From positions 1-64,000 of the forward strand of contig FWCC01000140.1 in the NCBI GenBank assembly GCA_900169235.1: 64,000 nt of DNA, written 5' to 3'. The translations under genes and the position numbers were made by a program. The notes beneath the pieces are model-generated. The model did not search any database. It had not been told where the DNA came from and worked only from the letters and a program-made list of their open reading frames with translations. This DNA comes from Zarea fungicola. Lineage: Eukaryota; Ascomycota; Sordariomycetes; Hypocreales; Cordycipitaceae. How positions within the stretch are numbered: position 1 is the stretch's first letter; each line of letters begins with the position of its first letter. Shown one piece after another: positions 20,860 to 56,677 of this stretch.

Positions 20860-23309
20860 ATGCTCCGAAGTCGCCAGGCCACCAAGGCCTTCAAGGCTTT
20901 GGGCCAGACTCGCTCATTCACTTCCACAACCGCGCCCATCACCTCGCGAGCTCAAAAAAAGCTGCCTCTCTCGCAACGGAACAAGGCCACTGCTGCGACT
21001 GCCTCGCCCGCTGGGTAAGTCCATTTTTTGCTGTTGATCGGATCGGGCTGTTGCTCGGGTGGTATTTTCATGCCCTAGGGAGAACCCAACCCTGCAGAAG
21101 CCGGCATCGGTGAGGCAGCGCGACACGGGTCCATCCAACGGGATGCGCGAGATGCAACGCAATGCGCTCTGGAAAATCAATTCGACTCAATTCCTTGGCC
21201 ATCAATTACTTCTCAGCTGCTAACTTGTACAGTGCTGTCCGTGCCGCTCCTAGTCCCGCCTTCAATGCCGAATCCCAAGGCCATGTCCAGCCCCTTGTCA
21301 ACCGCCGGAAAAGCGAAATGGACGAGTCGTACGTTGCAGCAAGGAAAAAAGAAAATCGGCCCTGCAATGCTAATGTAAAACAGGTTCATTGGCAAAACCG
21401 GTGGTGAAATCTTCCACGAAATGATGCTAAGACAAGGCGTCAAGCACATCTGTACGCGAACCACATCCACACAACTTGGTGCCTCGCTAACACATCCCAG
21501 TCGGCTACCCTGGCGGTGCCATTCTCCCCGTCTTTGACGCCATCTACAACTCAAAACACTTCGACTTTATCCTGCCCCGCCACGAGCAGGGTGCCGGCCA
21601 CATGGCCGAGGGTTACGCCCGCGCTTCTGGCAAGCCCGGTGTTGTCCTCGTCACCTCCGGCCCCGGCGCCACCAATGTCATCACCCCGATGCAGGACGCT
21701 CTCTCCGACGGCACTCCCATGGTCGTCTTCTGCGGCCAGGTCCCAACCACGGCCATTGGCAGTGATGCCTTTCAAGAAGCTGATGTGATCGGCATCTCGC
21801 GCGCCTGTACCAAGTGGAATGTCATGGTCAAGAGCGTCGCCGAGCTCCCCCGCAGAATCAACGAAGCCTTTGAGATTGCCACTAGCGGCCGCCCCGGCCC
21901 CGTCCTTGTCGACCTGCCAAAGGACGTCACGGCTGGTATCCTGAGACGGGCCATCCCCACCGAGACGGCTCTGCCTTCTCTCCCCTCGGCCGCTTCCCTC
22001 GCCGCGCTCGAGGCTGGCGACCGCCTCCTCCAGGCCTCCATCAACCGCGTTGCCGAGCTCGTCAACAAGGCCAAGAAGCCCGTCATCTACGCCGGTCAGG
22101 GTATCATCCAGTCCGAGGGCGGTCCCGAGATTCTCAAGCAGCTCGCCGAAAAGGCCTCCATTCCCGTCACCACCACCCTCCACGGCCTTGGCGCTTTTGA
22201 TGAGCTCGACGAAAAGTCCCTCCACATGCTGGGCATGCACGGTTCCGCCTACGCCAACATGGCCATGCAGGAGGCCGATCTCATCATTGCTCTCGGTGCC
22301 CGTTTCGATGACCGTGTCACCGGCAACATTGGCAAGTTTGCCCCAGGCGCCAAGCAGGCTGCCAACGAGAAACGCGGTGGCATTGTCCACTTTGAAATCA
22401 TGCCCAAGAACATCAACAAGGTTGTCCAGGCCACCGAGGCCATCGAGGGCGACGTGGCCACCAACCTGCGCTTCATGCTCGACTCGGTCGAGGCCAGATC
22501 CATGGACGACCGCAAGGCCTGGTTCGACAAGATCCGCGAGTGGAAGGCCAAGTGGCCGCTGTCCGACTACGCGCGCGCCGAGCGTGGCAGCCTCATCAAG
22601 CCCCAGACCGTCATCGAGGAGCTCAGCAACCTTACGGCTGACCGCAAGAGCGAGACGTACATCTCCACCGGTGTCGGCCAGCATCAGATGTGGACGGCCC
22701 AGCACTTTCGCTGGCGCCACCCGCGCTCCATGATCACCTCTGGTGGTCTCGGCACCATGGGATACGGCCTGCCCGCTGCCATTGGTGCCAAGGTGGCCCA
22801 GCCCGACGCCCTTGTTGTCGACATTGACGGCGATGCCTCGTTCAACATGACCCTCACTGAGCTCTCCACCGCTGCCCAGTTCAACATTGGCGTCAAGGTC
22901 ATTGTCCTGAACAACGAGGAGCAGGGCATGGTCACGCAGTGGCAGAATCTCTTTTACGAGGATCGCTACGCCCACACGCATCAGACCAATCCCGACTTCA
23001 TCAAGCTTGCCGAGGCCATGCGCATTCAGTGCCGCCGCGTCTCGGATCCTGCCGAGGTCGTTGACAGTCTCAAGTGGTTGATTGAGTCGGACGGTCCTGC
23101 TCTCTTGGAGGTTATTACGGATAAAAAGGTTCCCGTCCTGCCCATGGTTCCTGCTGGCTCTGCCCTGCACGAATTCCTCGTCTACGACGGAGGTAAGAAG
23201 CTGACGCCCAACTCAAAAAGATGGAAAATGCTAACGAATTACGTTTACAGACAAGGACAAGGCGCGCCGTGAGTTGATGAAGCAAAGAACATGTGGTCTG
23301 CACCAGTAA
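20860..23309 (+). CDS. ILV2: Acetolactate synthase (acetohydroxyacid synthase) catalytic subunit
   Basis: Exons are 20860-21014, 21233-21328, 21384-21451, 21501-23192 and 23251-23309, giving 689 residues. The enzyme condenses pyruvate with pyruvate or 2-ketobutyrate in mitochondria, the first common step of valine, leucine and isoleucine synthesis, using thiamine diphosphate, Mg and FAD. The N-terminus is rich in Arg, Ser and Thr with no acids, as in a mitochondrial targeting peptide. Visible motifs include the glutamate region GYPGGAILPVFD and the diphosphate-binding GDASFNMTLTEL. The residues usually changed in herbicide-resistant forms look wild type: Pro in CGQVPTT and Trp in GMVTQWQ. The first intron (21015-21232, 218 nt) is longer than the rest and contains coding-like sequence at 21080-21109, so an alternative 5' structure is possible, although no frame-compatible donor was found. 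Confidence 0.95.
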
Positions 23310-23626
23310 AGTGGAAGAAAATTGGAAGAATGCGCATACAAAAGTTTGAGTAACGTGCTCCGTTATTTACAAGTTTGTCATCTCACCGTAACGATGAGGC
23401 TTGAATAGTTCGTTGTCATCTCAAAATGTAAACGATGACAGGCTTGAACAAGGCGTTTTGGAGACCTCATTGCAAGGTCAATTTTAAGTTGTAATATTTG
23501 AAAGGAACATGCCACTGGCGTTTACATTGTACTTGCTGTCCCATGTACTTGAATGGAGTGAAGATGTGCTCCAAGTGTATGATGAGTATGATGTACAGAG
23601 GAGATTTATTACCGGGCTAGGACTTC
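23310..23626. other. Convergent intergenic region
   Basis: Contains the 3' flanks of ILV2 and of the convergent CoA-transferase. No feature seen. Confidence 0.5.
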
Positions 23627-25144
23627 CTAGGACCTCCACTTGGGCTCGTCGCTGCCCAGAGGCTTCGGTGCCTCGTCATAGCCAACCTCGACACCCTCAA
23701 TTGATGCGGCGTGTTTCAGCGCCATGGCCCGTCCAAAGCCGCTCTCCTTTACGTCCACGAACTGGGACGGCACCTCCCTGATATTCGCAGGCCGCCTCGT
23801 CCCGTCGCCGCCCTCAAACCCCGTCCTGCCGGGATACTGGCCCAGGCTGCGCAGATACTTCATCGTCCCCGCGAGCGAGACATTGACGACCCACGACCCG
23901 CCTTCTACGGCGCGTCTTTGCAGGGCCGCCATGACGCCCGCCGCGAGGAGCTGCCCGCTGCCGTGGTCGAGTGCCTGCACAGGCATGGACCGCGCTCCCC
24001 CGTCGCTGGCTCCGTTCTCCTGCTGCTGCCCGGCGGCGGCGGCGTGGTGCTCCGCCTCGGAGACGGTCATGCCCGTCGTCGTCTGCACGAGCGAGTCGAA
24101 CCCGCGCCGCCCCGACCACGGCCCGCTCGGCCCAAACGCGGACAGATTGGCCACGATGAGCCCCGGATTGACCCTGGCGAGATCCGCCGGCGCGAGGCCG
24201 TGCGCGGCGAGGCTGCCCGGCCGGTACCCCTGCAAGAAGACGTCGGCGGTGCGGAGCAGCTCCAGCAGCCGCGCCCGATCGGCGGCGCTGCGGCGGATGT
24301 CGAGCTGCACGGTGCGCTTGCCGCGGCTCATGTCGCTGTCGAGAAAGGGCACGTCGGGCAGGTTGGGGGACGTTACCCAGAGCACGTCGGCGCCGTGGGC
24401 GGCGAGCGTGCGGCCGGCGACGGGGGCGGCGATGACGCGGCTCATCTCGACGACCCGGAGACCCTGGAGGCACTTGCTGCTGCTTGCACTCGTGGGAGGA
24501 GGAGGAGGGAGAATCTTTCTCGGCCCCGGCGCGAGCTGTCGGATGAGAATGGGCTGCGGGCTCACGGCGAGGGACTGCGGGTGCGCGTCCCACTCGGCGT
24601 AGGACCGCTGCGCGTAGATGGCGACGCTGCCCTCCTGCGTCGCCCTCGTCTCCAGGTCCACCGCCTTCCAGGCCAGCGTCTTCTCGGCCACGTGCTCTCT
24701 GGTGGCGTCCGGCGGCAGGCCGAGAATCTCGAGCGTGCCGGCGACGTGGTTCGGGAAGAGGTCGTGGATGCGGACGTGGCCGTCTGCCGTCTTGTGCAGA
24801 CCGCCAATCTTGTTCAGGCCAGTGTCTGGTGGGTTTTCGGCCCAAATGTCCAGCCACTGGTAGATTTGCGAGTCAAACTCGAGCGCGGCATGATCGAGCG
24901 GCACGGTGACGCTGGGGATGTGCTGGCTGTTATTGCGGAGGGCGTGGTACTGCGCGGCTGCGAGGGCGGCGGCCGCAATGGTGGATTGGGCGAGCACGCC
25001 GATTTTGAACGAGGATGGGAGAATGAGCGTGTCTGCAGAGGGCAGGTGTAAAGATGAGAGGCCGGACAGAGGGATGCCGACAGATGTGAGAATGTCGGCG
25101 ACGACGTCCTTGGTTGTGAGCGCCGAGCGGTCCGGACTTGCCAT
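23627..25144 (-). CDS. Class III CoA-transferase (CaiB/BaiF family)
   Basis: Intronless gene of 505 residues with an ATG at 25144. The C-terminal half contains the family signature around CLQGLRVVEMSRVIAAPVAG (CoA-binding fold start), then ADVFLQGYRPGSL, NLSAFGPSGPWSGRRGFDSL and VQTTTGM, as in formyl-CoA/oxalate and carnitine CoA-transferases. The family moves CoA between carboxylic acids through an aspartyl-anhydride intermediate. The N-terminal 200 residues form an incomplete copy of the same fold, so this is a fused or pseudo-duplicated form common in ascomycetes. Substrate unknown. The MFS gene behind it is on the same strand, so a transporter-plus-activator pair for an organic acid is possible. 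The leader contains degenerate GGAAGATGTATAT repeats and a CGG-containing palindrome lies upstream. Confidence 0.9.
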   Translation of the reverse strand: MASPDRSALTTKDVVADILTSVGIPLSGLSSLHLPSADTLILPSSFKIGVLAQSTIAAAALAAAQYHALRNNSQHIPSVTVPLDHAALEFDSQIYQWLDIWAENPPDTGLNKIGGLHKTADGHVRIHDLFPNHVAGTLEILGLPPDATREHVAEKTLAWKAVDLETRATQEGSVAIYAQRSYAEWDAHPQSLAVSPQPILIRQLAPGPRKILPPPPPTSASSSKCLQGLRVVEMSRVIAAPVAGRTLAAHGADVLWVTSPNLPDVPFLDSDMSRGKRTVQLDIRRSAADRARLLELLRTADVFLQGYRPGSLAAHGLAPADLARVNPGLIVANLSAFGPSGPWSGRRGFDSLVQTTTGMTVSEAEHHAAAAGQQQENGASDGGARSMPVQALDHGSGQLLAAGVMAALQRRAVEGGSWVVNVSLAGTMKYLRSLGQYPGRTGFEGGDGTRRPANIREVPSQFVDVKESGFGRAMALKHAASIEGVEVGYDEAPKPLGSDEPKWRS

Positions 25145-25164
25145 GGCAGTGTTTGTCTCTATAG

Positions 25165-25248
25165 GGAAGATGTATGTGGAAGATGTATATGGAAGTTCTT
25201 GTGGAAGATGTATATGAAAGATGCATATGAAAGATCAGGGAAGATATC
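25165..25248. repeat. Degenerate tandem repeat, unit near GGAAGATGTATAT
   Basis: Five or six imperfect 13-17 nt copies lie immediately upstream of the CoA-transferase start codon, within its likely 5' leader. Read on the coding strand the unit is ATATACATCTTCC. Confidence 0.7.
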
Positions 25249-25365
25249 TGATGCAATGAATAAGTACTACAGCATGAGTCATAGAATAATGTAGAGCTCG
25301 GCTCAAGGGATGTGTAGATTGCGTGCTACGATGCCGAGGCTGGCGTCGTATTAACGTCTGCGGGG

Positions 25366-25380
25366 CCGGAGCGGCTCCGG
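25366..25380. promoter_or_regulatory. Palindrome CCGGAGCGGCTCCGG, possible Zn2Cys6 factor site
   Basis: Perfect 7-nt inverted arms around one central base, 222 nt upstream of the CoA-transferase ATG. Inverted CGG triplets are the usual targets of fungal Zn2Cys6 dimers. Function is inferred from sequence only. Confidence 0.35.
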
Positions 25381-25534
25381 GCACAATACGGCAATAGACG
25401 GCGATAATCACTCAATCTGTCTTGGCATCTATAGATTGAGTAACATTTCAAGTCACTTGGCAATATTAAATTTGACTTGACAATGTTCAATTATTCTGTT
25501 ACTGATTACGGCTTATACACGGAGTCTCCGGTAG

Positions 25535-25580
25535 CCAGGATATATACGCCAGGATATATACGCCAGGATATACGCCAGGA
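25535..25580. repeat. Tandem repeat of CCAGGATATATACG
   Basis: Two perfect 14-nt copies (25535-25548 and 25549-25562) are followed by a 12-nt copy lacking one AT (25563-25574) and a partial copy. They lie between the MFS stop codon and the CoA-transferase promoter. Confidence 0.85.
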
Positions 25581-25624
25581 AATGCAAATCTACGCGCTAT
25601 GCAAATGAATCGAAATCTCAAAGT

Positions 25625-27334
25625 TCAGCTCTTCTCCTGCGTCATCTCCCCCTCACTCTCCCGATCCAGCGCCGCCTTTTCATCCGCCGTCATTGCTGCC
25701 GATGCTGAGCCCATTTTAATGGTCAGAGTCAAGACAAGCGCCAACCCGGCCAAGCCAACGCCAACCCAGAACCCAATCTGATACTGCGCGCGCAGGCCCA
25801 GCTTGTCCTTGCCCTTTGTCTCCAACGCCACCGAAACGGCCATTTCTGCGATGCCCAGCCAAAACGCCATGCCAAAGTACAGCAGGCTGTTGATGAGGCC
25901 CGACGCTGCGTTTTGTAGGCGGTGCGGCATGGCCGTTGTGATGAAGACGTTGGTGACGTTGAACATGATGTCGACGCCAATCGTGCCGCACAGCATGGAC
26001 GGGAAAATATACGCCCAGTAGAGCTTGGATGTGGCCATCTTCCCGGAGCCCGACTGGTCCGGGATCAGCGGGGGCATGAGCACAGAGATGAGGAAGCCGA
26101 CGCCGGAAATGATCATGAGAATGCGGTTCGGGATGATGTGCATGACGAAGCCGCCGCACACGGCCAGGATCATGCCGCCCACGGCCAGCGGGGTGAACCA
26201 CGCGGCCGTGAGGATGGGCATCGTGTGCAGCACCGTCTCGAGGTAGAAGCTGACGTAGAAGAGGAACAGGCCAAACATGCCGTACGAGCAAAAGAGCACG
26301 ACGCACAGGCGCTTCATGTACTTTGGCTTGAAGAGCGCGGCGGGCAGCAGCGGCTGCGCCGACACCCACCCCTGGACGTACACGGCGGCGGCGAGGAAGA
26401 GGAGGCCCAGCGCGAGCGTGACGTAAATGTACGGCGTCCGCCACCCCTGCGGCGCCTGCCCGCCCTGGGTGAAGGCGAAGACGACGAGCGCGAGCCCCGG
26501 CACAATGGTCCCGACGCCGAGCCAGTCCATCCTGGCGGCCGGGTCGATGGCATGCAGGTCGCGCGGGATGCTGAGGAGTCCCGAGACGATGATGCACAGG
26601 ACCATGATGGCGCCGATCCAAAAGTACCACCGCCAGGTGAGGAACTGCGCCGCGACGGCGCCCATGAAGATGCCAAAGTAGAAGCCCACGCACGCCAGCG
26701 CGCCCCAGACGGCGAAGACGAGGTTCTTGCGCGGGCCGGGACGGTACGTCTGGCCCAGGATCGCCAGCCCGGCCGGCACAAAGGCGGCGGCGCCGATGCC
26801 CTGCATGGCGCGGCACACAATCAGCATGACGCCGTTTTGGCTGAAGCCGGCCACGACGGACCACACCAGCATCCAGGCGTGCCCGACGAGGAAGACGGTG
26901 CGGCCCCCGTACATGTCGCACAGGCGGGAGCAGGTGAGCAGCAGCGCGGCGGTGGTGAGGTTGATGGCGGCGGCGGGCCACGTGCGGGACGACTCGGACA
27001 TGTCGAGATCGGCAGAGACGGGCGGGAGGATGATGTTGAAGCCGGAGATGGTGTACTCGGACATCATCATGGAGGAGACGACGGTGACGACAAAGGCGAT
27101 TTCCGCGTACCATGTGGCGAAGCAGGCGGGACGGATGCGGCCGAGGCGTTCAATGTCGGGCTGGGTGAGGGTGTCTTGGGAGTTGTCGCTGTGGTTGGCG
27201 GCGTCCACCTTGACGTCGGCGTCGGCGGTGGTGTTGGGGTTGCGGTTGGAGGCGCGAGAGAGGAATTTGGTGAGGCCACTGCCTGACTCTTCCATGACGC
27301 CGTCTGGCGACATGGCTGGGTGTTGGCCCGCCAT
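25625..27334 (-). CDS. MFS transporter, 14-span DHA2 drug:H+ antiporter type
   Basis: Intronless, 569 residues counted from the first ATG in frame (27334); the frame is open upstream only to a GTG. A polar N-terminus of about 70 residues precedes about 14 hydrophobic spans. The loop 2-3 motif A appears as SRLCDMYGGRTVFLVG and an antiporter-like motif as CRAMQGIGAAAFVPAG. The short cytosolic tail is acidic and Lys-rich. The family exports drugs, toxins or organic acids across the plasma membrane by proton exchange. It lies directly behind the class III CoA-transferase on the same strand; the pair may share a function, but no secondary-metabolite synthase lies in the window. Confidence 0.92.
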   Translation of the reverse strand: MAGQHPAMSPDGVMEESGSGLTKFLSRASNRNPNTTADADVKVDAANHSDNSQDTLTQPDIERLGRIRPACFATWYAEIAFVVTVVSSMMMSEYTISGFNIILPPVSADLDMSESSRTWPAAAINLTTAALLLTCSRLCDMYGGRTVFLVGHAWMLVWSVVAGFSQNGVMLIVCRAMQGIGAAAFVPAGLAILGQTYRPGPRKNLVFAVWGALACVGFYFGIFMGAVAAQFLTWRWYFWIGAIMVLCIIVSGLLSIPRDLHAIDPAARMDWLGVGTIVPGLALVVFAFTQGGQAPQGWRTPYIYVTLALGLLFLAAAVYVQGWVSAQPLLPAALFKPKYMKRLCVVLFCSYGMFGLFLFYVSFYLETVLHTMPILTAAWFTPLAVGGMILAVCGGFVMHIIPNRILMIISGVGFLISVLMPPLIPDQSGSGKMATSKLYWAYIFPSMLCGTIGVDIMFNVTNVFITTAMPHRLQNAASGLINSLLYFGMAFWLGIAEMAVSVALETKGKDKLGLRAQYQIGFWVGVGLAGLALVLTLTIKMGSASAAMTADEKAALDRESEGEMTQEKS

Positions 27335-27630
27335 TGCGTTTTGGTTGTGATGAGATGTGACGGTGGTTATGGCATACACGTTGAAGCCGTCGAGTTGTCC
27401 TGTAAGCTTACTGCTGCTTCAACTGATGTAGTAGTGTGTGATGAGATTGAACTTGTCGAATACCTAAGCCTTCACACTGGCGCAGAGCCGCATTATAAAG
27501 TCTGGCTCAGAATAACTCCAGTCTTAACTATGGAGAACTGGTGTCAACTACAAGGCGTGCGTGAAGCATTTATAAAGGCAAAAGAAAGTTTTTCTCCCAT
27601 CGTGGTCCGAGAACGGGCACTAAGAGGCAA

Positions 27631-47143: not shown

Positions 47144-50100
47144 CTAGATGAGAGAATACACGCTGGGCGCGTCATTCACTTCAAATTGCTCTTCTTTAAA
47201 CCGACCTATGCTAATCAACTGATCCTTAACCTCATTATAGCTAACCAGAGCCTGTGTTTTCTTCAGTTTATCGACAAAGTCGGTAATGCCAGGGATCACA
47301 ATCAGCCGACCTTGAGTTATCTGATCTCTAGCCCAAGTTGGTAGTCCGCTGTTTGTGGCGTCACTAATTGCATCCAATCCAAAAAATGCGAGGACATTAT
47401 CCGACGCATTGTCTGCATGTGGCACAAAATATTCATCGTGACACGATCGTACGGCCACAATCCTGAGTAGAGGCGGCATCGCCAATGCCTGAACTGCTGC
47501 ATATATTTCCTCCCATATGGAGGCAAGTTCTTGGTCAGAAGGTTTCATCGCTGTTGTCCAAAGAAGCATCAACAATGTTCTAGTATTTGTCTCAAAGAAA
47601 ATGCCACGTCCATGACTATCCAATGGGTTTCTTCCCAGGCATTTTATTTCGTAGTGATCCACCCCTTCAAAAGTCTGCCGCAATGAATGCAGATGGATAA
47701 AAACTGGTATCCGGCCACATTCCGCGAGAACGAGTCCTGGCAGAAGTCGAGCCATTAATTCCCAGTCTTCGATGTAGTCAGACTTGCAGACAGCACGGAG
47801 AAAGCGCAAAACCAGATCAGTATCAATGTGAAACCGGTGATCTGGCTTTGTATTATAACAAATTGAATCCGTTTGGTTCCATGAAGTGGCATTTATTCCT
47901 CTTTCGAGCAAAGTTTTGAACAGTCTTGCTGCACCCCCAATGCTGGCGCCGGGCCGGTTTAGGCCACTAGTCAAACTGGCGAGGAGGAAATTCTCATAAG
48001 CAGCAGATACTATCATGCCACTAGGACGGTGTTGATGAAGTCGATTTAGCTCCATGGATGCATAGTCGAAAAAAGATGCTTCTATTACGAAGTGGAGGAA
48101 ATCACGCCTCTTCATTGCCAAACCGCTCACCACCCACTGCGTTGTTCCATTTTTTGTGAGTGCTCTACGAATAGCATTTCCTGGACAACGGTTCGCCCAC
48201 AGCTGTCTTTCTTCCACAGCCTTGATGTCTGCGAGAACTACATTTCCTTCGATTGGGAAATGAAAATTGATGCTGTTGAGCACAGATTCTAATGCTTGGA
48301 ATATACAGCAATTGTCCAGAACTTTATCGAACAGGTCTGTGGAGTTCTCCATTTCAAAGTTGGAGCTCTCAGCAACGCGGTCTTTTTCCAGAAGGACTTG
48401 CATGTACGCAATATAGACTTTTAATAAACTAGCCAGTCGCTCCATTGGCTCAGTTTTGTCTAGATGCAAGACCTTTTGACCAAAATCAGAAAACTTTAAG
48501 AAATCGTGGGCTGAGCGGTGAATAAAAGCCACCTTGCCATCTTTGGCGACCTCCAGCAGACCAGCAGTCCGTGAAACCAGGCATTTTTTGGTAGCATTGC
48601 GTTCAGTCCTCAGGTTCTTGAGGAGAGAGTTGTCGTAGTTGTAAAGAAGAGACGTCACCATCCGTGGATTAACGGCCAACGTCATCAATGTAACGGTAAG
48701 CCAGCAATCGAAGAAACAGGCCCAGTCACCACAAGTGACCGCAATGTTTAGGTATCGTGAGGCATCCTCTTCATAGATAATTTGCTGGCCATTTGCACGA
48801 TTCCACATCTGCTGATAAAGATCGCATATATCATTCGGTAAAGTACGCAGGTGAGCGCTCAGTGCCTCGGAATTTTCACCGTACAATGTCCCCCGTTTTA
48901 GCTGATCAAGAACGAGAGCTACCCAGAGGAACACCCCAGAAGATTTGGAATACAATTCATCTAGAAATATTTCGGCTTCATCTTCATTTTTCCAGCCCAA
49001 GGTCCCAAGTTTGTCTTGACAATACTTGTAGATGTCAGGTTTTGTAAGATCCTGCATACGGAGCGACGGGTAGTCACGAAACTGGTGCTGCAATTGTGGC
49101 TCCGGACGACTCGAAAGGCAAAGTTGAATGTTGGGAGCTTTGAAAACTCTGGTGAAAAGATCAATTAGTGTTGATTGATCCTCTTTGTCTGCCTCGTCTA
49201 TGCCGTCTATGAAAATACACCAGTGGTTTTGGGACGCTAAAAACGCATACTTGGTGACGGCTTCCAACTCTCGATTTGACCAGTCCTGGACGGTTGATTT
49301 CCATTTGGCACTGGAAAATCTTTTGAGTACTAGTTGCTGCAGTACATCATCTTCAATGAGAAGGTCGTGAAGCAATGAGCAGAGGAATCCCTTTGTGCTT
49401 CTCAATGCAGAGTCGCCTGCCGCCCAGAAATAATGACTTAGGACTTTTGGAGACTTTTTTTTCGCATGCAAAATGTCGATTGTTCGAGAATCTTCAGCCA
49501 AAAATCGCATCAGTGTGCTTTTGCCGGAGCCAGCTTTGCCCGAAACCCAATAAGGTCGGTGGTCCTGCGAACGCAGCCACTCAACGAAATCATCCCATTG
49601 TAGCGTTGAATATTCAACGTCGTCTGAATAAGTTGAAAAGTCCGTAGCTTGCGACGAAGAATCCGTTTCGTCATCTGAAGAATCATCTTGCCCCAGGTTA
49701 TTTGCGTCTGAAAGGGAGACCTGTGTTGAATGTTAGTCAGGAGAAACATAGTGACACCCCCGCTTACATCAGTTGACTCATCCGTGATGGAAGAAAATAT
49801 CCATTCAAAAGTCTGATGGTGTGCATTTTCAATTTGGTCACGGCGCGAATCTTTACCAGGGTAGTTCAAGCTTTTCAGTAGCCTCTCTCCTTCTTGTCTC
49901 TCTGCCTGGAATTTCTGAGCCGCCTCCACGGCCGACGATATTGTGTCATCGAATTTTCTGGAACGGGTGCTAATGTCTTCTTTGATGCCTTGTCGCAGTT
50001 TTTCTGTTTCGCCTGTGACATGGGCTTTGATCGAGATCGACTCCTCGGCAATGAGATTTTGGAGAGCAGTCTGTCCACGAGATAATGCAGCAACAAAACG

Positions 50101-50653
50101 CTGCATGGAATGGTCCAGATTATCAAACCCTTCCTGATTCATGATAATTGCGGCGTCTGTGGTCTTGCTGAAATAGTAGGTTAGAAACAACCCTGTATTG
50201 ATTACTCTACACCCACGAGACCTACCAAATTCGAGTGAGAAGCTGGGTCTCAAGAATACGCTGTCGGGCACGCATTGTCTCATCAAGATCCTTCAATCTC
50301 CTTTTCACCACTGTAATAGTCTTGAACCATGCCATAGCCGCATGGACAGAACTCTTTTGTGATAGCTCCCTAATCTTGGCCAGCTCGGTCGATATCGCAG
50401 TACCTGTGGTGAGGCTCCCACTAGCAATATCGAGCAGTGTCCGACAGTCCTGAGTTATTGGCTGCGCTCCGTTTTCAAGTTGTTGCTTCAAGTTCAGTAT
50501 ACATGTATTAAGGTGAGACGTGTTGTATTCAAGGATGCTGTCCATGCTGCCGCCGTGGCGCATGTCCCGAGCAACTTTGACCGCCTCGTGCGCAAAGCTG
50601 ATGGTCTGCATGACATTGCAGGCGATGCCGAAAATTGCTATAGCTTCCATCAT
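47144..50653 (-). CDS. NACHT-domain NLR-type protein
   Basis: Exons are 50653-50226, 50167-49768 and 49720-47144, giving 1134 residues. Residues 1-270 form a helical N-terminal domain of the fungal NLR kind (MMEAIAIFGIACNVMQTISF). A short acidic stretch leads to a NACHT NTPase: Walker A WVSGKAGSGKSTL (about 334-346), Walker B CIFIDGIDEAD (about 444-454) and sensor-like LCLSSRPEPQ. The remaining 600 residues contain no ankyrin, WD40 or TPR repeats that I can see. Fungal NLRs act in heterokaryon incompatibility and immune-like recognition; this one would need an unrecognised sensing domain. Both introns are required to keep the frame through the P-loop: the second removes 47 nt and restores DESTD-VSLSDANNL. 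Confidence 0.88.
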
Positions 50654-51589
50654 GGATCATTTCACCTTGTTGACTGTATTTTCTTGGTCATCGCAGCGTT
50701 GGGCCGTCGCGGCCGCCTGGAAATATTAATTAAGGTGCTGCGGGGTTGGCCAATGGTAGCTGCAGTCGGTACATTGGGCTGAGCGCGTATGACCAGACCC
50801 GGCAAGGCAGACAGGATGACGCCCATTAGTCTGCAAACAATACAGATGCTGGGTAGGTGAGTACGGGCAGCTGGGCTGTCATCTGGGTTACAGCGTTCTT
50901 CGAGGGTTCGAGTCGAAGAATATGTGAGATGCCTTACATAACAAATACCCATTACAACAATGTTGAGAGAAGTATTTGAGCCTTGTCTTTAATACAATTT
51001 GCCTGAATTTGAAAGAAGTCTCAACCTTCAGCGACCGGCGATACGAAATACTAACAACTCGAGCAGGCCACCTGGCCTGATTAATGTTACGGCAAGCCTA
51101 ACTTCGGCAACCACAGCCCGTCAAGGGACAGGTATCAAACCTCAGAGTAAAGTTAATGGATTATGGTTTTCTTCTTAATAGTCATATTTTCTTCGCGTTT
51201 TTTTTTTGTCTTTTTTTGTCTTTTTTTGTCTTTTTTTGTCTTTTTTGTCTTGTTTGTTTCTTAGCTTTCTTCTTTGCTTTCTTCCCAACTACATGATGAC
51301 ATTCCATAGCTAAAACTACGTCAGTGTATCGTCTAAAATCGTTCTAATCCGGCACAGCCGGGTACCGCGCCGAGCCGAATTATATGGTGGGGTTGGAAAT
51401 GTCAGATGGCCCAGTCTCTTGTGGGTGGATTGGCAGTCTCTAATCCTTCTCACTGTGGCGACAAATCATTGAGCAACACCATTCATTGCCTAGCAAACAT
51501 CTTGCTCCTTCACAATCTACTCTAAAGCAATTACCGCCTCACAGAATAATTCTCTCCAGACTGCACCGTTGCTACCTAGCTCCATTACC
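50654..51589. other. Divergent promoter region of NLR and response-regulator genes
   Basis: Nearly 1 kb between the NLR (-) and the REC-LuxR gene (+). It contains a T-rich microsatellite at 51201-51250. No gene seen. Confidence 0.55.
51201..51250. repeat. Microsatellite, 10-nt unit TTTTTTTGTC
   Basis: Four perfect units plus one copy with one T fewer, about 340 nt upstream of the response-regulator start. Confidence 0.95.
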
Positions 51590-52198
51590 ATGTCGGCCAC
51601 TCCGTCCCAGCCGGCCATCCGGATCGTGATTGCTGACGGGAACCCCGATGCCATCACCACGTTCAAAAAGGATTTCGCTCCCGATTCACACCCAAGCATT
51701 GTTGGCACGGCAAACACGACGGAAGAGCTGCACAAATTACTCTCTTCAACTCCCTGCGATGCTGTTCTTCTAGACTTTGTGACATTCGGAGAGATGTCTG
51801 TGCTGGAGGCTGTCAAGGAGAGTCATCCCAACCTACGGGTGATTTACGTGGCTGCACAAGGCCCCGCTAGCGATACACTGCAGAGCCTGGTGCGACGAAA
51901 TGTGATCCCGGGATTCATTAAAAAGGGTGACAAGCCGGAGGAAACTGTCTACACGATTGAGACCATCTTCGATGGGCCGATTGAAGGCGACACGAAATTG
52001 GCTACGAGTTTCACGCGACTAACCGCCCGCGAAAAGGCAGTCCTGAATTGTCTCTTGGAGGGCTTTACCACCAGCGAGATTGCGTCGCAGCTCCATCGAA
52101 GCCAAAAGACGGTCGCTGAGCTGAAGCAGAGTGCCTGCGACAAGCTCGGTGCAAATAGTCTTTCGGACCTCTTTAAGCTGCAGCACAAGTTTCAGTAG
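51590..52198 (+). CDS. Bacterial-type response regulator: REC-like domain plus LuxR helix-turn-helix
   Basis: Intronless, 202 residues from the ATG at 51590 (start context ACCATGTCG). Residues 9-125 fold like a receiver domain: IRIVIAD, a candidate phospho-acceptor Asp62 in DAVLLDF, and Lys111 in GFIKKG. The acidic pair is reduced (Asp16-Gly17) and the conserved Ser/Thr is replaced by Ala in IYVAAQG, so phosphorelay may be lost. Residues 142-200 match the NarL/LuxR-type DNA-binding domain: LTAREKAVLNCLLEG, TTSEIASQLHRSQKTV and ACDKLG, closest in my reading to RcsB-like proteins. This architecture is normal in bacteria and very unusual in fungi. The flanking genes are intron-bearing fungal genes, so contamination is unlikely. 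Ancient horizontal transfer followed by adaptation is the favoured inference. Confidence 0.88.
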   Translation: MSATPSQPAIRIVIADGNPDAITTFKKDFAPDSHPSIVGTANTTEELHKLLSSTPCDAVLLDFVTFGEMSVLEAVKESHPNLRVIYVAAQGPASDTLQSLVRRNVIPGFIKKGDKPEETVYTIETIFDGPIEGDTKLATSFTRLTAREKAVLNCLLEGFTTSEIASQLHRSQKTVAELKQSACDKLGANSLSDLFKLQHKFQ

Positions 52199-52580: not shown

Positions 52581-54015
52581 CTACTGCTCATCTTCGCTGG
52601 AACGACGAGCCATGACTACATGTGCCTTGTCGAGAACCAGCTCTTCTTCCCCGCGATACTTTGGATGCTTCACCAGAGCCCCAAACATGGTAAGCTTAAT
52701 CTTGTCCCCCATATCATCGTCATCGCCCCTAAATACAGCAAATGCCTCGGCAATAGATTCGTTTTCGGCCAGGTCCGTCCCGGAGCGCAGCCTGACGCAC
52801 TCATAACCCTCCCGCGAGCCTCGCATCAAGAGCCGCAGCTTGATTGCATCTTGGCAGAGCTGCAGGAACCGTGCATGAAGTGTTGTAAGCTCGGACGAGT
52901 CCACATCCTCAACAATCATGCGCTCGAAATAGTTATACATGTATTGTGCCATGTCGGTGCCCAAGTCTTCCGTCAGATTCCCCAGACGCACGCATTTCAG
53001 GGTCGCCACTCGCCAGTCTGTGATTAGATTATCGGGCACTGTTGCGGTGGTTAGCTGGAATCATTCTACAGACGCCACCCGCAGCTTACCCCTTCGACTT
53101 TGCAGCAATGTCTCGAAATGGCTCAGTGTTGCGTCAATATGAAAAAACTCCCTCCGTTCGTCCCGGGTGGCTGATGGCGCCGCCGAGACCCCGAAATAAT
53201 TATGACCAAGAATGTAGTTATAAATAATCCGAAACATTTGGACCCTCATTTTTATTATACGGTCTTTACGAGCCTCTCCTTGCCAGGCGTCGTAAAATTG
53301 ATCGCGTTCGTCATATGCGGGCACATATGGGCTGGTCGCATTGCCACTGTTGGCATATATTCGATTATTGGCCAACCTTTGGATCTGTTGCCGTAGACTT
53401 CGAAATGATTGAATAACGTCACTGTCCAACGTCTCTTCGCCTGTTGAATTGTCCAGAATACTGACTAGAAGCTTTTGCTCCCTCTCTTTTAGATCCCGGA
53501 CCTCTTCATCCGCGAGGCGCAGCTGCGCTTCCAACTCCAACAGTCGTTTTTCGGGTGCTGACGTATCTTCTGTTTTTTGTCCAGTTTGCTGTAGCTACGC
53601 GCCCATTAACTTCAAAGATTCACTAAATTTGTCGCAAATCTGCAGCCTTTGTGCTTACTTTGGCGCCGCCTATATCGCCTTCACGTATTGCCGCGGCAAT
53701 TTTGCGTTGCGACGGCTTTTTTACTCGGACCTCATCCCACTCTGCATCAAGTGTCTAAGGTTTACTCAGTAATATTTACCTTCCAGTACAAGATAAACTT
53801 ACGTCGCCTTGTAACTTTAGAGCGAGCGCTTTCTGCGCGGAAACGGGCATGCCCTCGATGTCAGAAGCAATCTTCTTGAAACCAAGCTCGTTAAACAGAT
53901 CTTGGAGCTGACGGACCGGGTCGCGCGGGAAATCCCGCGGACCTGTCCTCCTGTCCCCATCACCACCGACTGGCCTTGGCTGGCTCTGAAACGGTCGTGA
54001 TAAGAAATTAAACAT
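52581..54015 (-). CDS. Uncharacterised fungal protein with coiled-coil centre
   Basis: Exons are 54015-53803, 53754-53659, 53594-53090 and 53038-52581, giving 423 residues. All three introns are 44-64 nt with GTAAGT or GTAAGC donors and TAG or CAG acceptors, and the frame closes. The N-terminus is Pro/Arg-rich, then about residues 105-160 form a heptad-like coiled coil (LLELEAQLRLADEEVRDLKE). The second half is helical with acidic and basic patches, including WRVATLKCVRLGNLTEDLG and a segment RGDDDDMGDK. No domain recognised and no function is proposed. It is transcribed divergently from the Hsp70-like gene, 383 nt away, so the two may share a promoter. Confidence 0.75.
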
Positions 54016-54398
54016 ATTCGCTTGATGTAAATGCAATTTGATTGCCCAGTAAGGATTTCAAAGCACAGCACCTACCCCTCAGCTCGGAGTTAGGCGCCGT
54101 ATCAAACTTAGGCCTCGCTGGGCTTGCGGCCTGCATGTTACAGTCACGTGCATATGCAGCAAGGGTATCAGCCGCTTTCAATAGTTTTCTTTGGTGAGGC
54201 CGGAGTTGAAAGGAGAGAGGGGTAATAGTGTCGTATTAACAAGCGGTAGGTTTGTGTGCAACCTGTAGATGGGATATTATAACCAACAAGGACAGTCTTG
54301 GCGGCCGTTAAACAGCGGTTTGTATAAGACGCTAAACATCGAAATAAAAACACAAAAGAAGAGCAATAAACGTACAAGGGTTTTGCTACACTACGATA
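54016..54398. other. Shared divergent promoter
   Basis: Separates the unknown coiled-coil gene (-) and the Hsp70-like gene (+). No strong element seen. Confidence 0.5.
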
Positions 54399-56677
54399 AT
54401 GAGTGAATTTTCAGTCTCTGCAGCAACTCGCCGGTTTGGCGATCTGAAGGTGTCAGGGTCACCCGCAAGGCGCTTGATCATTGCGATAGATTTTGGAACT
54501 ACTTATTCAGGAGTAGCCTACTGCTTTCCTGATCAACGCGAGGCTACACCGAATTCAGTCTTGAACTGGCCAGGTAAGGGGCTAATCTTCTACTCCTGCA
54601 GAGACTTACACTGGATGCAGGCGCCCGAGGCGTCACGGCGCCAAAGATCCCGACAGTCGTGAAATATGGTGTCAGCGGTGACTGTGAATTTGAGTGGGGG
54701 GCGCTCGTCAAGAACCGGAATGGCAGCATCGTTGGCGTCAAGCTCCTGCTTGACCAGAAGCAGCCACTGCCGTGGCATGTTCCAAACAGCTTCAGAATGG
54801 ACCTGGATGAGCTTCCCAAGGCACCAGAAGCAATAGCGGCTGATTTCCTTCGCGAGATGCACTCTCACGCCATGGCGCAGATTGCGACAAAGATTCCCCA
54901 GGCGGCTCTAGATCTCTTTGCAAAGGAATATATCATGTCGGGTACGTAGCTTCATGTATTCGCAATGGGATATCCTGACTTAGATTATTAGTACCTGCTG
55001 TATGGTCCGATGTTGCAAAGAATGCTACTCTCAAGGTATGGCGCTTGTGTGTAAAACATACCAGAGCTGACTGTTTCAAAGGCAGCAACCCAGGCAGGCA
55101 TCTCCCCGGTTTCATTGATAAAGGAGCCTGAAGCAGCTGCGCTGTATACGATCAGAAGACTTGACGCAAACCTTGACCCAACCGATGTTATTGTTATATG
55201 CGATGCTGGTGGTGGCACCGTTGACTTGGTGTCGTATGAGATCGAGGCGACTTCTCCGACTCTTCAGTTGAAGGAAATTGTACCTGGCACAGGTAAGCTC
55301 ACCCCTGATTATGCTCCCAAATTCTAACACGTATGCAAGGGAAAATGGTTGGCTCTGTGGCGCTCAACTTGCGGTTCAAGGCCGCTGTTCAAGAAATTAT
55401 CCCAGCCCACAAGTGGGAAACATTCAAATCCAGCAGGGCAATGACGCAAGCCAGCATTCAGTTTGAAGAAGAGATAAAAAAGACCTTTCACGGAGATCTA
55501 GACGAGGAATACTATGTCAACTTCCCTAGAGGTGGGCTGGATGATGACCCGGCTAACAACCTGGAGTCAAACGAATGGAGAATGACAGGGTACGACTTAC
55601 ATGATCCACGCCTTCTAATCATGGGCTAACAGATGGTAGATCCGATGTAGCAAAGATTTTTGAGCCCGTCATGGTTGATATCGTACAACTAATTCACGAT
55701 CAAGTCCAGTCCGTTCGAGCAAAGAACAAGTCTGTCAAGGTGTGTGGTCCTGACCGTGTTGTGGATTATCCATTGATGTCGTACAGGCAGTGTTTCTTGT
55801 TGGGGGCTTCGGAAGCAACCAATATCTGAGGGTGCGAGTCGAAAAAGCGAACCCGGACATCCGTGTTGTTCAGCCTGACGATGCATGGGCCGCCATTGCC
55901 AAGTGAGTACAAGCATTCAGTTATCAGGCCGCTTGATTAATTGTTATGTCGTGTTACAGAGGAGCGGCCCTATCGAGAATGCCAGACAACGCCGTCGTGA
56001 CGAGCGTCTCAGCGGTTCGACACTACGGTGTCCTGGCAGCGCGCCATTTGACCCCATCATCGACAAGGGGCAGGAGAGATTTTCGTTTTATCGTGACGGA
56101 ATTGTACGATCGAATCGACTAAGATGTTTTGTTCTTGCTGCGTCAATCCGCTCTAACAGTTACAGCTGCTCTGGCACATCAGAACGGGCGACAGCATCAA
56201 GAAGAGCCAAAAGATTCGAATCACTCTCAACAGGGAGCTTCCGAATCACTTCACTCCGGATCAATGCATATTTAAAGCCACTCTCTTTGACAGCGAAGAT
56301 AGGTACGTTAGGAGTGCTCAGCCACGGTATTCCTTGCTAACGAGTAAATAGAGTGGCCCCGCTACACATGTCAGAAGGCAGAAAGATTAAGCAAAACTGT
56401 GTTCTGACTGCGAGACTTGACGGTGTCCCAACTTCCAAGTTTACCAGAATGATGAGCCAGTCCAGCTCGGCACTCGTGCACGGGGGTATGCAGGGACCTG
56501 GGTCAGGGGAGCCGTAGTAAGTAGCGGAAGCCAGTGCGACAAATGTATAGCTAACACAGGTGTAGTTGGTTGATAAAGTTTGACTTGGTAATATCCTTTG
56601 AATCGGCGCTGATGAAATTTTCGCTGGAATTCGATGGTGAAACCATGGGCTCGGTAGAGGCTCATTTTGAGCAGTAA
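54399..56677 (+). CDS. Hsp70-like ATPase of the fungal actin-fold family, with apparent frameshift
   Basis: Eleven exons are supported: 54399-54573, 54621-54941, 54992-55035, 55082-55292, 55340-55589, 55640-55739, 55787-55902, 55960-56103, 56166-56302, 56352-56516 and 56566-56677. The protein has the actin-like ATPase signature IIAIDFGTTYSGVAYC at the N-terminus, a second phosphate loop VICDAGGGTVDLVSYE and the adenosine motif FLVGGFGSNQYL. It lacks a canonical Hsp70 substrate domain and ends with ALMKFSLEFDGETMGSVEA, typical of the divergent Hsp70-like (Hsp12A-type) proteins expanded in fungi. Exon 8 changes frame at about 56046-56049: frame 1 gives RHYGVLAAR, and the continuation FDPIIDKGQERFSFYRDG is in another frame, as if one T were missing. 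Without that, translation stops at 56119-56121 or shortly before. The gene is either broken or the base is a sequence error. Confidence 0.82.

Follow-up and report, generated by a model that had tools for sequence, protein, structure and literature searches.

An atypical RcsB-like response regulator encoded in the genome of the fungus Zarea fungicola

A normal receiver domain depends on an acidic pair, an acceptor aspartate, a Ser/Thr residue and a lysine, and the second residue of the acidic pair (DD2) binds the metal directly. These requirements are set out in excerpts of a 2025 review (PMC12632262), in which a receiver is termed a pseudo-receiver as soon as any of the five is absent, and the control of bacterial pseudo-receivers is called a mystery. 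RcsB, the NarL/FixJ-type regulator of the Rcs phosphorelay, consists of a receiver followed by a LuxR-type helix-turn-helix (HTH). In its complex with DNA, as described in excerpts of the structural report (PMC5829831), the side chains of K180 and S184 touch bases, while those of S152, K154, T169, R177, T181, S183, Q185, K186 and K187 touch phosphates; a DNA-bound dimer forms with or without a phosphodonor, albeit a weaker one without. Receiver folds devoid of key residues are also found in the atypical bacterial regulators ChxR, HP1043, BldM and WhiI: ChxR and HP1043, both members of the OmpR/PhoB family, act independently of phosphorylation according to the abstracts of the pertinent studies, and BldM and WhiI are termed orphan and atypical in comparable extracts.

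The protein described here, labeled P0001, has such a degenerate receiver but is encoded by a fungus. It thus shares with Ssk1, Skn7 and Rim15 the presence of a receiver domain in a fungal cell. Fungal receivers form a relay with Ypd1, and to our knowledge neither Ssk1 nor Skn7 nor Rim15 carries a LuxR HTH. LuxR-type domains already appear in a published table that lists the DNA-binding domains characteristic of fungi (Shelest, 2017; PMC5415576), so that the domain alone is not new there. A literature search that covered titles and the beginnings of abstracts, mostly of journals outside subscription, brought up no study in which a REC-LuxR regulator is described from a fungus.

The window, that is the entire 64,000-nucleotide stretch of Z. 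fungicola DNA that we analyzed (contig FWCC01000140.1 of assembly GCA_900169235.1), contains the P0001 gene as a single uninterrupted frame whose start codon is preceded by an A at position −3 (Table 1). An earlier sequence-only reading had proposed an intronless gene with a fungal start context whose 202-residue product joins a receiver to a LuxR-type HTH, and we found it accurate in each of these respects. The Pfam GerE profile (PF00196) scores 44.8 bits on P0001 (cut-off 23.5), which identifies a LuxR/GerE HTH; the Response_reg profile stays at 18.6 bits, under its cut-off of 30.2. Structure prediction, which the same reading had proposed for both domains, yielded a proper fold for each of them (mean pLDDT 79.7, pTM 0.61), and P0001 shares its N-terminal receiver fold and its HTH with the NarL/FixJ (REC-LuxR) regulators, though not their complete set of five phosphorylation residues. 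Some 350 bases 5' of the start codon, a tandem T-rich unit (GTCTTTTTTT-like) was spotted by eye on the plus strand (window 51195-51250).

Table 1. Features of the P0001 gene and of the genes adjoining it, in window coordinates.
Feature	Position	Strand	Basis
Intronless gene for a 202-aa REC-LuxR (RcsB-like) protein, stop codon included	51590..52198	+	
Pseudo-receiver domain, residues 10-129, five-fold beta-alpha fold	51617..51976	+	Pfam, fold prediction, Foldseek
Acidic-pair site: Asp16 (DD1) kept, DD2 replaced by Gly17	51635..51640	+	Alignment to bacterial rows
Phospho-acceptor Asp62, kept	51773..51775	+	70/70 bacterial rows
Shortened beta3-alpha3 loop through alpha3, no Pro at D+4	51776..51826	+	17 residues D62-P80; bacterial 19-23 (n=69)
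Ser/Thr switch position, replaced by Ala88	51851..51853	+	Thr/Ser in 69/70 bacterial rows
Catalytic Lys112, kept	51923..51925	+	70/70 bacterial rows
Short inter-domain linker	51977..52018	+	31 residues K112-L144; bacterial 34-58 (n=70)
LuxR/GerE four-helix DNA-binding domain (predicted), residues 144-196	52019..52177	+	Pfam, fold prediction
Predicted recognition helix, residues 172-186	52103..52147	+	K173, T174, K179, K185 kept; A176, E177, L178, Q180 changed vs RcsB
Left neighbor, STAND/NLR-like gene (NPHP3_N domain)	47144..50653	-	Several exons, read by eye
Right neighbor, uncharacterized gene	52581..54036	-	Several exons, read by eye; two scanned pieces below Pfam cut-offs

The surroundings of the gene are those of a fungal chromosome, as had been claimed from the letters alone. 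Both adjoining genes were read by eye as multi-exon genes, and the NPHP3_N domain of the left one is of the kind present in fungal STAND proteins. Profile matches were obtained for seven of the nine further long window ORFs that we scanned: an ABC transporter, an acetolactate synthase (NCBIfam names this thiamine-pyrophosphate enzyme as the large subunit), two MFS transporters, a family III CoA-transferase, an SGTA-type TPR co-chaperone and a kinesin. Hence, eukaryotic genes lie on both sides, with the co-chaperone and the NPHP3_N protein to the left and the kinesin to the right, and P0001 is integrated among fungal genes. No histidine-kinase or Hpt family was detected among the neighboring exons scanned, a further point in which P0001 differs from RcsB. 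The composition of the gene (GC 53.8%, GC3 62.9%, codon score 0.70) falls inside the range spanned by the 25 long ORFs of the window, not all of which are genes (their codon scores run from 0.60 to 0.87), and its flanks have a GC content of 42% and 41% vs. 53.8% in the gene itself. Two further observations concern the window at large. At 21491-27418, the genes for the acetolactate synthase large subunit (over the TIGR00118 cut-off), the family III CoA-transferase and an MFS transporter adjoin each other, a trio that may represent either a housekeeping copy or a metabolite cluster. At 54399-56677 (plus strand) there is what looks like a gene of several exons; we read its first exon as that of an Hsp70/actin-like ATPase, for which Pfam gave no more than a sub-threshold RuvX match.

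A GerE profile scan of the entire genome (43,144,919 bases in 456 contigs) returned a single match, the P0001 gene, whereas the same kind of match was found 12, 38, 43, 14, 16, and 5 times in six bacterial genomes or records; the genome is therefore unlike a bacterial contaminant. No second copy of P0001 was present in it at E 0.1. Sixteen other receiver matches exist at separate loci, none of them accompanied by a GerE match, and we consequently rejected an ordinary fungal response regulator as the identity of P0001. Elsewhere in this genome (C175:66835-67038), a partial receiver match contains one internal TAG and possibly represents a pseudogene or an intron-split domain. Zarea fungicola is the newer name of Lecanicillium fungicola. 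The genome paper on L. fungicola 150-1 (44.6 Mb, 781 contigs; PMC6509529) does not mention a REC-LuxR gene.

When about 5.8 billion proteins were searched with P0001, one match was recovered: P0002, a "hypothetical protein NQ176_g3591 [Zarea fungicola]" of 202 residues from a separate fungal assembly that is 96% identical over its full length, a finding that makes contamination very unlikely. Residues 1-142 used alone as the query revealed two further proteins, P0124 and P0125, each of 203 residues and encoded on contigs of 3.1 and 3.3 kb, respectively. Over their full length, these are 55% (P0124) and 52% (P0125) identical to P0001 and 95% identical to each other. Judged from their sequences, the four proteins form a distinct subfamily: common to all of them are a DGN motif in the place of DDH and the same D62-P80 and K112-L144 spacings (Table 1). 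Their frames are of nearly equal length (202-203 aa) and intact down to 51% identity, which argues for selection to keep the protein. In two database searches, the only named fungal match was P0002 and no other named eukaryote was found, and distant fungal members could have been missed; since the 5.8-billion-protein search overlooked P0124 and P0125, copies in other fungi may likewise have escaped it. As to the expectation that the gene would occur in several related fungi, it is present in two fungal assemblies.

Among named proteins, RcsB is the closest relative, just as the sequence-only reading had it. It is the best match by sequence among solved structures (E 8e-7) and occupies ranks 1-22 of the Foldseek list obtained with the predicted fold, where its rows are 22-24% identical to P0001. 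The NCBIfam equivalog profile for RcsB (NF008098) gives 30.5 bits against a cut-off of 235, so that P0001 does not qualify as an RcsB orthologue. The two proteins have the pattern RS-x-KT-x(4)-K-x-S-A-x(2)-KLG in common, but P0001 departs from RcsB in its lost DD2 and Thr residues, its shorter loop and linker, its altered recognition helix and its residence in a fungal genome.

Searches of bacterial and mobile-element sequences gave distant relatives throughout. With P0001, tblastn retrieved 43 plasmid records, led by Burkholderia (8), Caballeronia (6), Pantoea (6), Cupriavidus (4), and Sinorhizobium (4), with 26-29% identity among the ten matches listed; together with two phage records, all were below 60% identity and the listed rows did not exceed 31.6%. 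P0124 matched 120 plasmid records, the best of the eight listed at 34%, and none of the viral contigs searched. A recent phage or plasmid source was rejected on these grounds. When species genomes of bacteria and archaea were scanned with alignment A1, a search that is biased because its patterns derive in part from the bacterial rows supplied, 118 loci were obtained; of the best 80 that were kept, 59 belong to Pseudomonas, Herbaspirillum, Burkholderia, Paraburkholderia or Achromobacter, their best segments being 23-34% identical. Among 398 evenly drawn genomes of this proteobacterial phylum, 242 contain a P0001 match at E 1e-3, and the matches listed reach at most 33% (full-length), 36% (partial, residues 47-200) and 47% (HTH only). 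At E 1e-15, P0124 has a match in just one of the 398 genomes (34% identity); at E 1e-17, a cut-off that a 50% relative should by inference pass, none was found in either of two orders sampled with 399 and 390 genomes, respectively, samples that overlap little of the known species and were run with no positive control. No full-length bacterial match exceeded 34% identity. A profile search with alignment A3 scored 7997 candidates, 6315 of them at E 1e-6, and the named proteins among the 120 listed are bacterial except for P0002; A3 leans towards bacteria through five bacterial rows taken from earlier matches.

Alignment A4 combined 58 of 80 loci from the A1 scan, 11 of 30 from the phylum sample and one of 30 from the six-genome GerE scan, picked by eye to limit near-duplicates. 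Tree building started from 165 rows, each cut back to the region that the profile matched; 105 of them were kept after removal of rows at least 72% alike; a further 29 (13 long or stray bacterial rows and 16 from crowded subgroups) were dropped, leaving 76, or 78 with P0124 and P0125. In the resulting tree, whose sample is almost wholly pseudomonadotal, the four sequences form one clade (support 100/100) on a long stem branch (1.88). This clade lies inside the RcsB-like bacterial proteins (98/93 and 98/96) and apart from NarL, UvrY and EvgA of E. coli, and its favored sister is a 15-row group of Pseudomonas, Burkholderiales and Pantoea sequences (90/85). AU tests disfavor joining it to UvrY (p 0.047) or to EvgA (p 0.024) and tolerate its position as an outside sister of the bacterial RcsB-like rows (p 0.383) or apart from the 15-row group (p 0.312), all p values being weakened by the fact that the groups were named after the trees had been inspected. 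The expected nesting within one bacterial clade is hence favored by the tree and not enforced by the AU test, which likewise does not single out the 15-row group or any other bacterial subgroup as the source. Collectively, sequence, predicted fold and trees assign the four-member clade to the RcsB-like branch of the proteobacteria or to a position next to it.

The bacterial rows nearest in the tree are L133, L082, L034, L003 and L022, and the best BLAST scores belong to L051, L008 and L005. These RcsB-like regulators of Burkholderiales, Pseudomonas and Pantoea, 23-34% identical over their full length, differ from P0001 in that the five-residue active site is intact in nearly all rows. L003 adjoins a 2.4-kb gene annotated as "ATP-binding protein" and L004 is near a 2.6-kb gene annotated as "response regulator"; we read both as genes for kinase partners. 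The fungal endosymbiont Candidatus Glomeribacter gigasporarum also encodes RcsB-like regulators (L069, L074). As L069 falls into a different tree subgroup from P0001, this bacterium is not supported as the donor.

Transfer from bacteria is, in our view, very probable; its direction and age are what we infer from these data. Bacterial contamination or a chimaeric assembly can be set aside as a negligible prospect in view of the lone GerE match in 43.1 Mb, the co-chaperone, NPHP3_N and kinesin genes that flank P0001, and the 96% copy in the other fungal assembly. A REC-LuxR family of ancient eukaryotic standing, passed on by vertical descent or derived from plastids and lost nearly everywhere, would accord with the absence of a fixed transfer date and with the AU result that allows the clade to stand outside the sampled bacterial RcsB-like rows; it is highly improbable given that P0002 is the one named eukaryotic match of two database searches, which could miss distant fungal members, and that the affinity is to RcsB-like proteins in a tree that contained no plastid sequences. 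A more serious contender, although still unlikely, is that the subfamily acquired its degenerate features in bacteria of a lineage outside our sample, from which the fungus received it ready-made, perhaps recently. P0124 and P0125 reside on 3-kb contigs that could be bacterial and possibly stem from that lineage, and the DGN motif, the short loop and the short linker are present in all four members. The near absence of P0124 relatives from the proteobacterial samples searched at E 1e-15 and E 1e-17, together with the fungal-like composition of the window gene, speaks against it.

The receiver of P0001 is, by its residues, a pseudo-receiver in which two of the five key residues are missing, and the phosphorylation site had rightly been called degenerate. 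At position 17, P0001 has Gly, in contrast to the Asp of all 65 bacterial rows that are not gapped at this site, and this DD2 replacement is common to the four subfamily members; the change of the Ser/Thr position to Ala88 was likewise predicted correctly and is found in P0001 and P0002, while P0124 and P0125 may retain a Ser (VLYLS; the alignment is ambiguous). The pseudo-receiver definition as excerpted from PMC12632262 hence applies to all members, with two residues missing in P0001 and P0002 and at least one in P0124 and P0125. Asp16, Asp62 and Lys112, by contrast, persist throughout the subfamily. Asp62 was the acceptor proposed previously; the catalytic lysine had been assigned to position 111 and is in fact Lys112. 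Ordinary phosphorelay is unlikely with Gly17 at DD2, Ala88, no Pro at D+4 and a short loop region; the retained Asp and Lys counsel caution, since their presence in all four proteins would be odd if phosphorylation were wholly irrelevant.

In the HTH, of the 11 RcsB side chains that contact DNA, four are identical in P0001 (K180, R177, T181, K186), three are conservatively replaced (S152T, K154R, T169S) and four are changed (S184E, S183A, Q185L, K187Q). The base-contacting Lys180 is kept as K173, a Glu occupies the position of the other base-contacting residue, and a Leu stands where 63 of 70 bacterial rows have Gln. The net charge of the recognition helix is +1 in P0001, +2 in P0124 and +3 in P0125, vs. 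2 to 5 in all 70 bacterial rows; that of the whole HTH is +2 (bacterial range 1-8, with 9 of 70 rows as low). Judging from these contacts, DNA binding is probably kept and its specificity changed.

Two other functions have to be weighed against such a role. P0001 could still be a phosphorylated output regulator in a fungal His-Asp relay that runs from hybrid kinases via Ypd1 to Asp62, and the three acidic and basic residues kept throughout the subfamily, the possible Ser of P0124 and P0125, and the 16 other receiver matches in the genome fit this idea; we nonetheless consider it quite improbable, because DD2, the direct metal ligand according to the excerpted review (PMC12632262), is Gly in every member, P0001 and P0002 have Ala at the Thr/Ser position, the loop is shortened and the D+4 Pro is absent. 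The main rival to retained DNA binding is its loss: with the same origin, HTH and pseudo-receiver might by now function in binding other proteins, as a module that titrates a partner for instance, or the gene might be slowly decaying. The recognition-helix charge below the entire bacterial range and the four changed contacts point in this direction. Yet among the four sequences, conservation of the HTH equals that of the receiver (58% vs. 59% between P0001 and P0124; 98% vs. 94% between P0001 and P0002), K173, R147, R170, T174, K179 and K185 are kept or conservatively replaced, the helix charges of P0124 and P0125 are higher, and four intact frames speak against decay, so that we rate this alternative as rather doubtful.

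The best explanation, to which we assign a probability of roughly 0.58, is that P0001 is a horizontally acquired, phosphorylation-independent, DNA-binding regulator; the DNA-binding, phosphorylation-independent role taken for itself we consider moderately probable. Its ancestor would have been a proteobacterial RcsB-like response regulator that entered the fungal lineage by horizontal transfer and was then retained. Control by ordinary phosphorelay would probably have been lost along with the DD2 metal ligand, the Ser/Thr switch and the full-length active-site loop. Since RcsB forms a DNA-bound dimer even without a phosphodonor, albeit a weaker one, domestication could plausibly have set out from an activity that does not require phosphorylation. 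As a small soluble protein, P0001 may reach the nucleus, dimerize with no need for phosphorylation of its Asp, and bind DNA through its LuxR HTH, by which it would regulate fungal genes.

Bacterial genes taken up by fungi have mostly been reported as enzymes, and one published study (PMC5169069) deals, by its title, with a case of this kind. More tentatively, and at slightly less than even odds, a complete bacterial two-component output protein may here have become a phosphorylation-independent nuclear transcription factor of a fungus, severed from its kinase, rewired to eukaryotic promoters and set apart as a fungal subfamily of its own by the DGN signature, the shortened active-site loop and the changed DNA-reading helix. 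If true, a bacterial regulator would have been kept in a eukaryote without its kinase, its RNA polymerase or its operon, with both domains preserved and the switch chemistry lost, and it would offer a system in which the control of pseudo-receivers can be put to the test.
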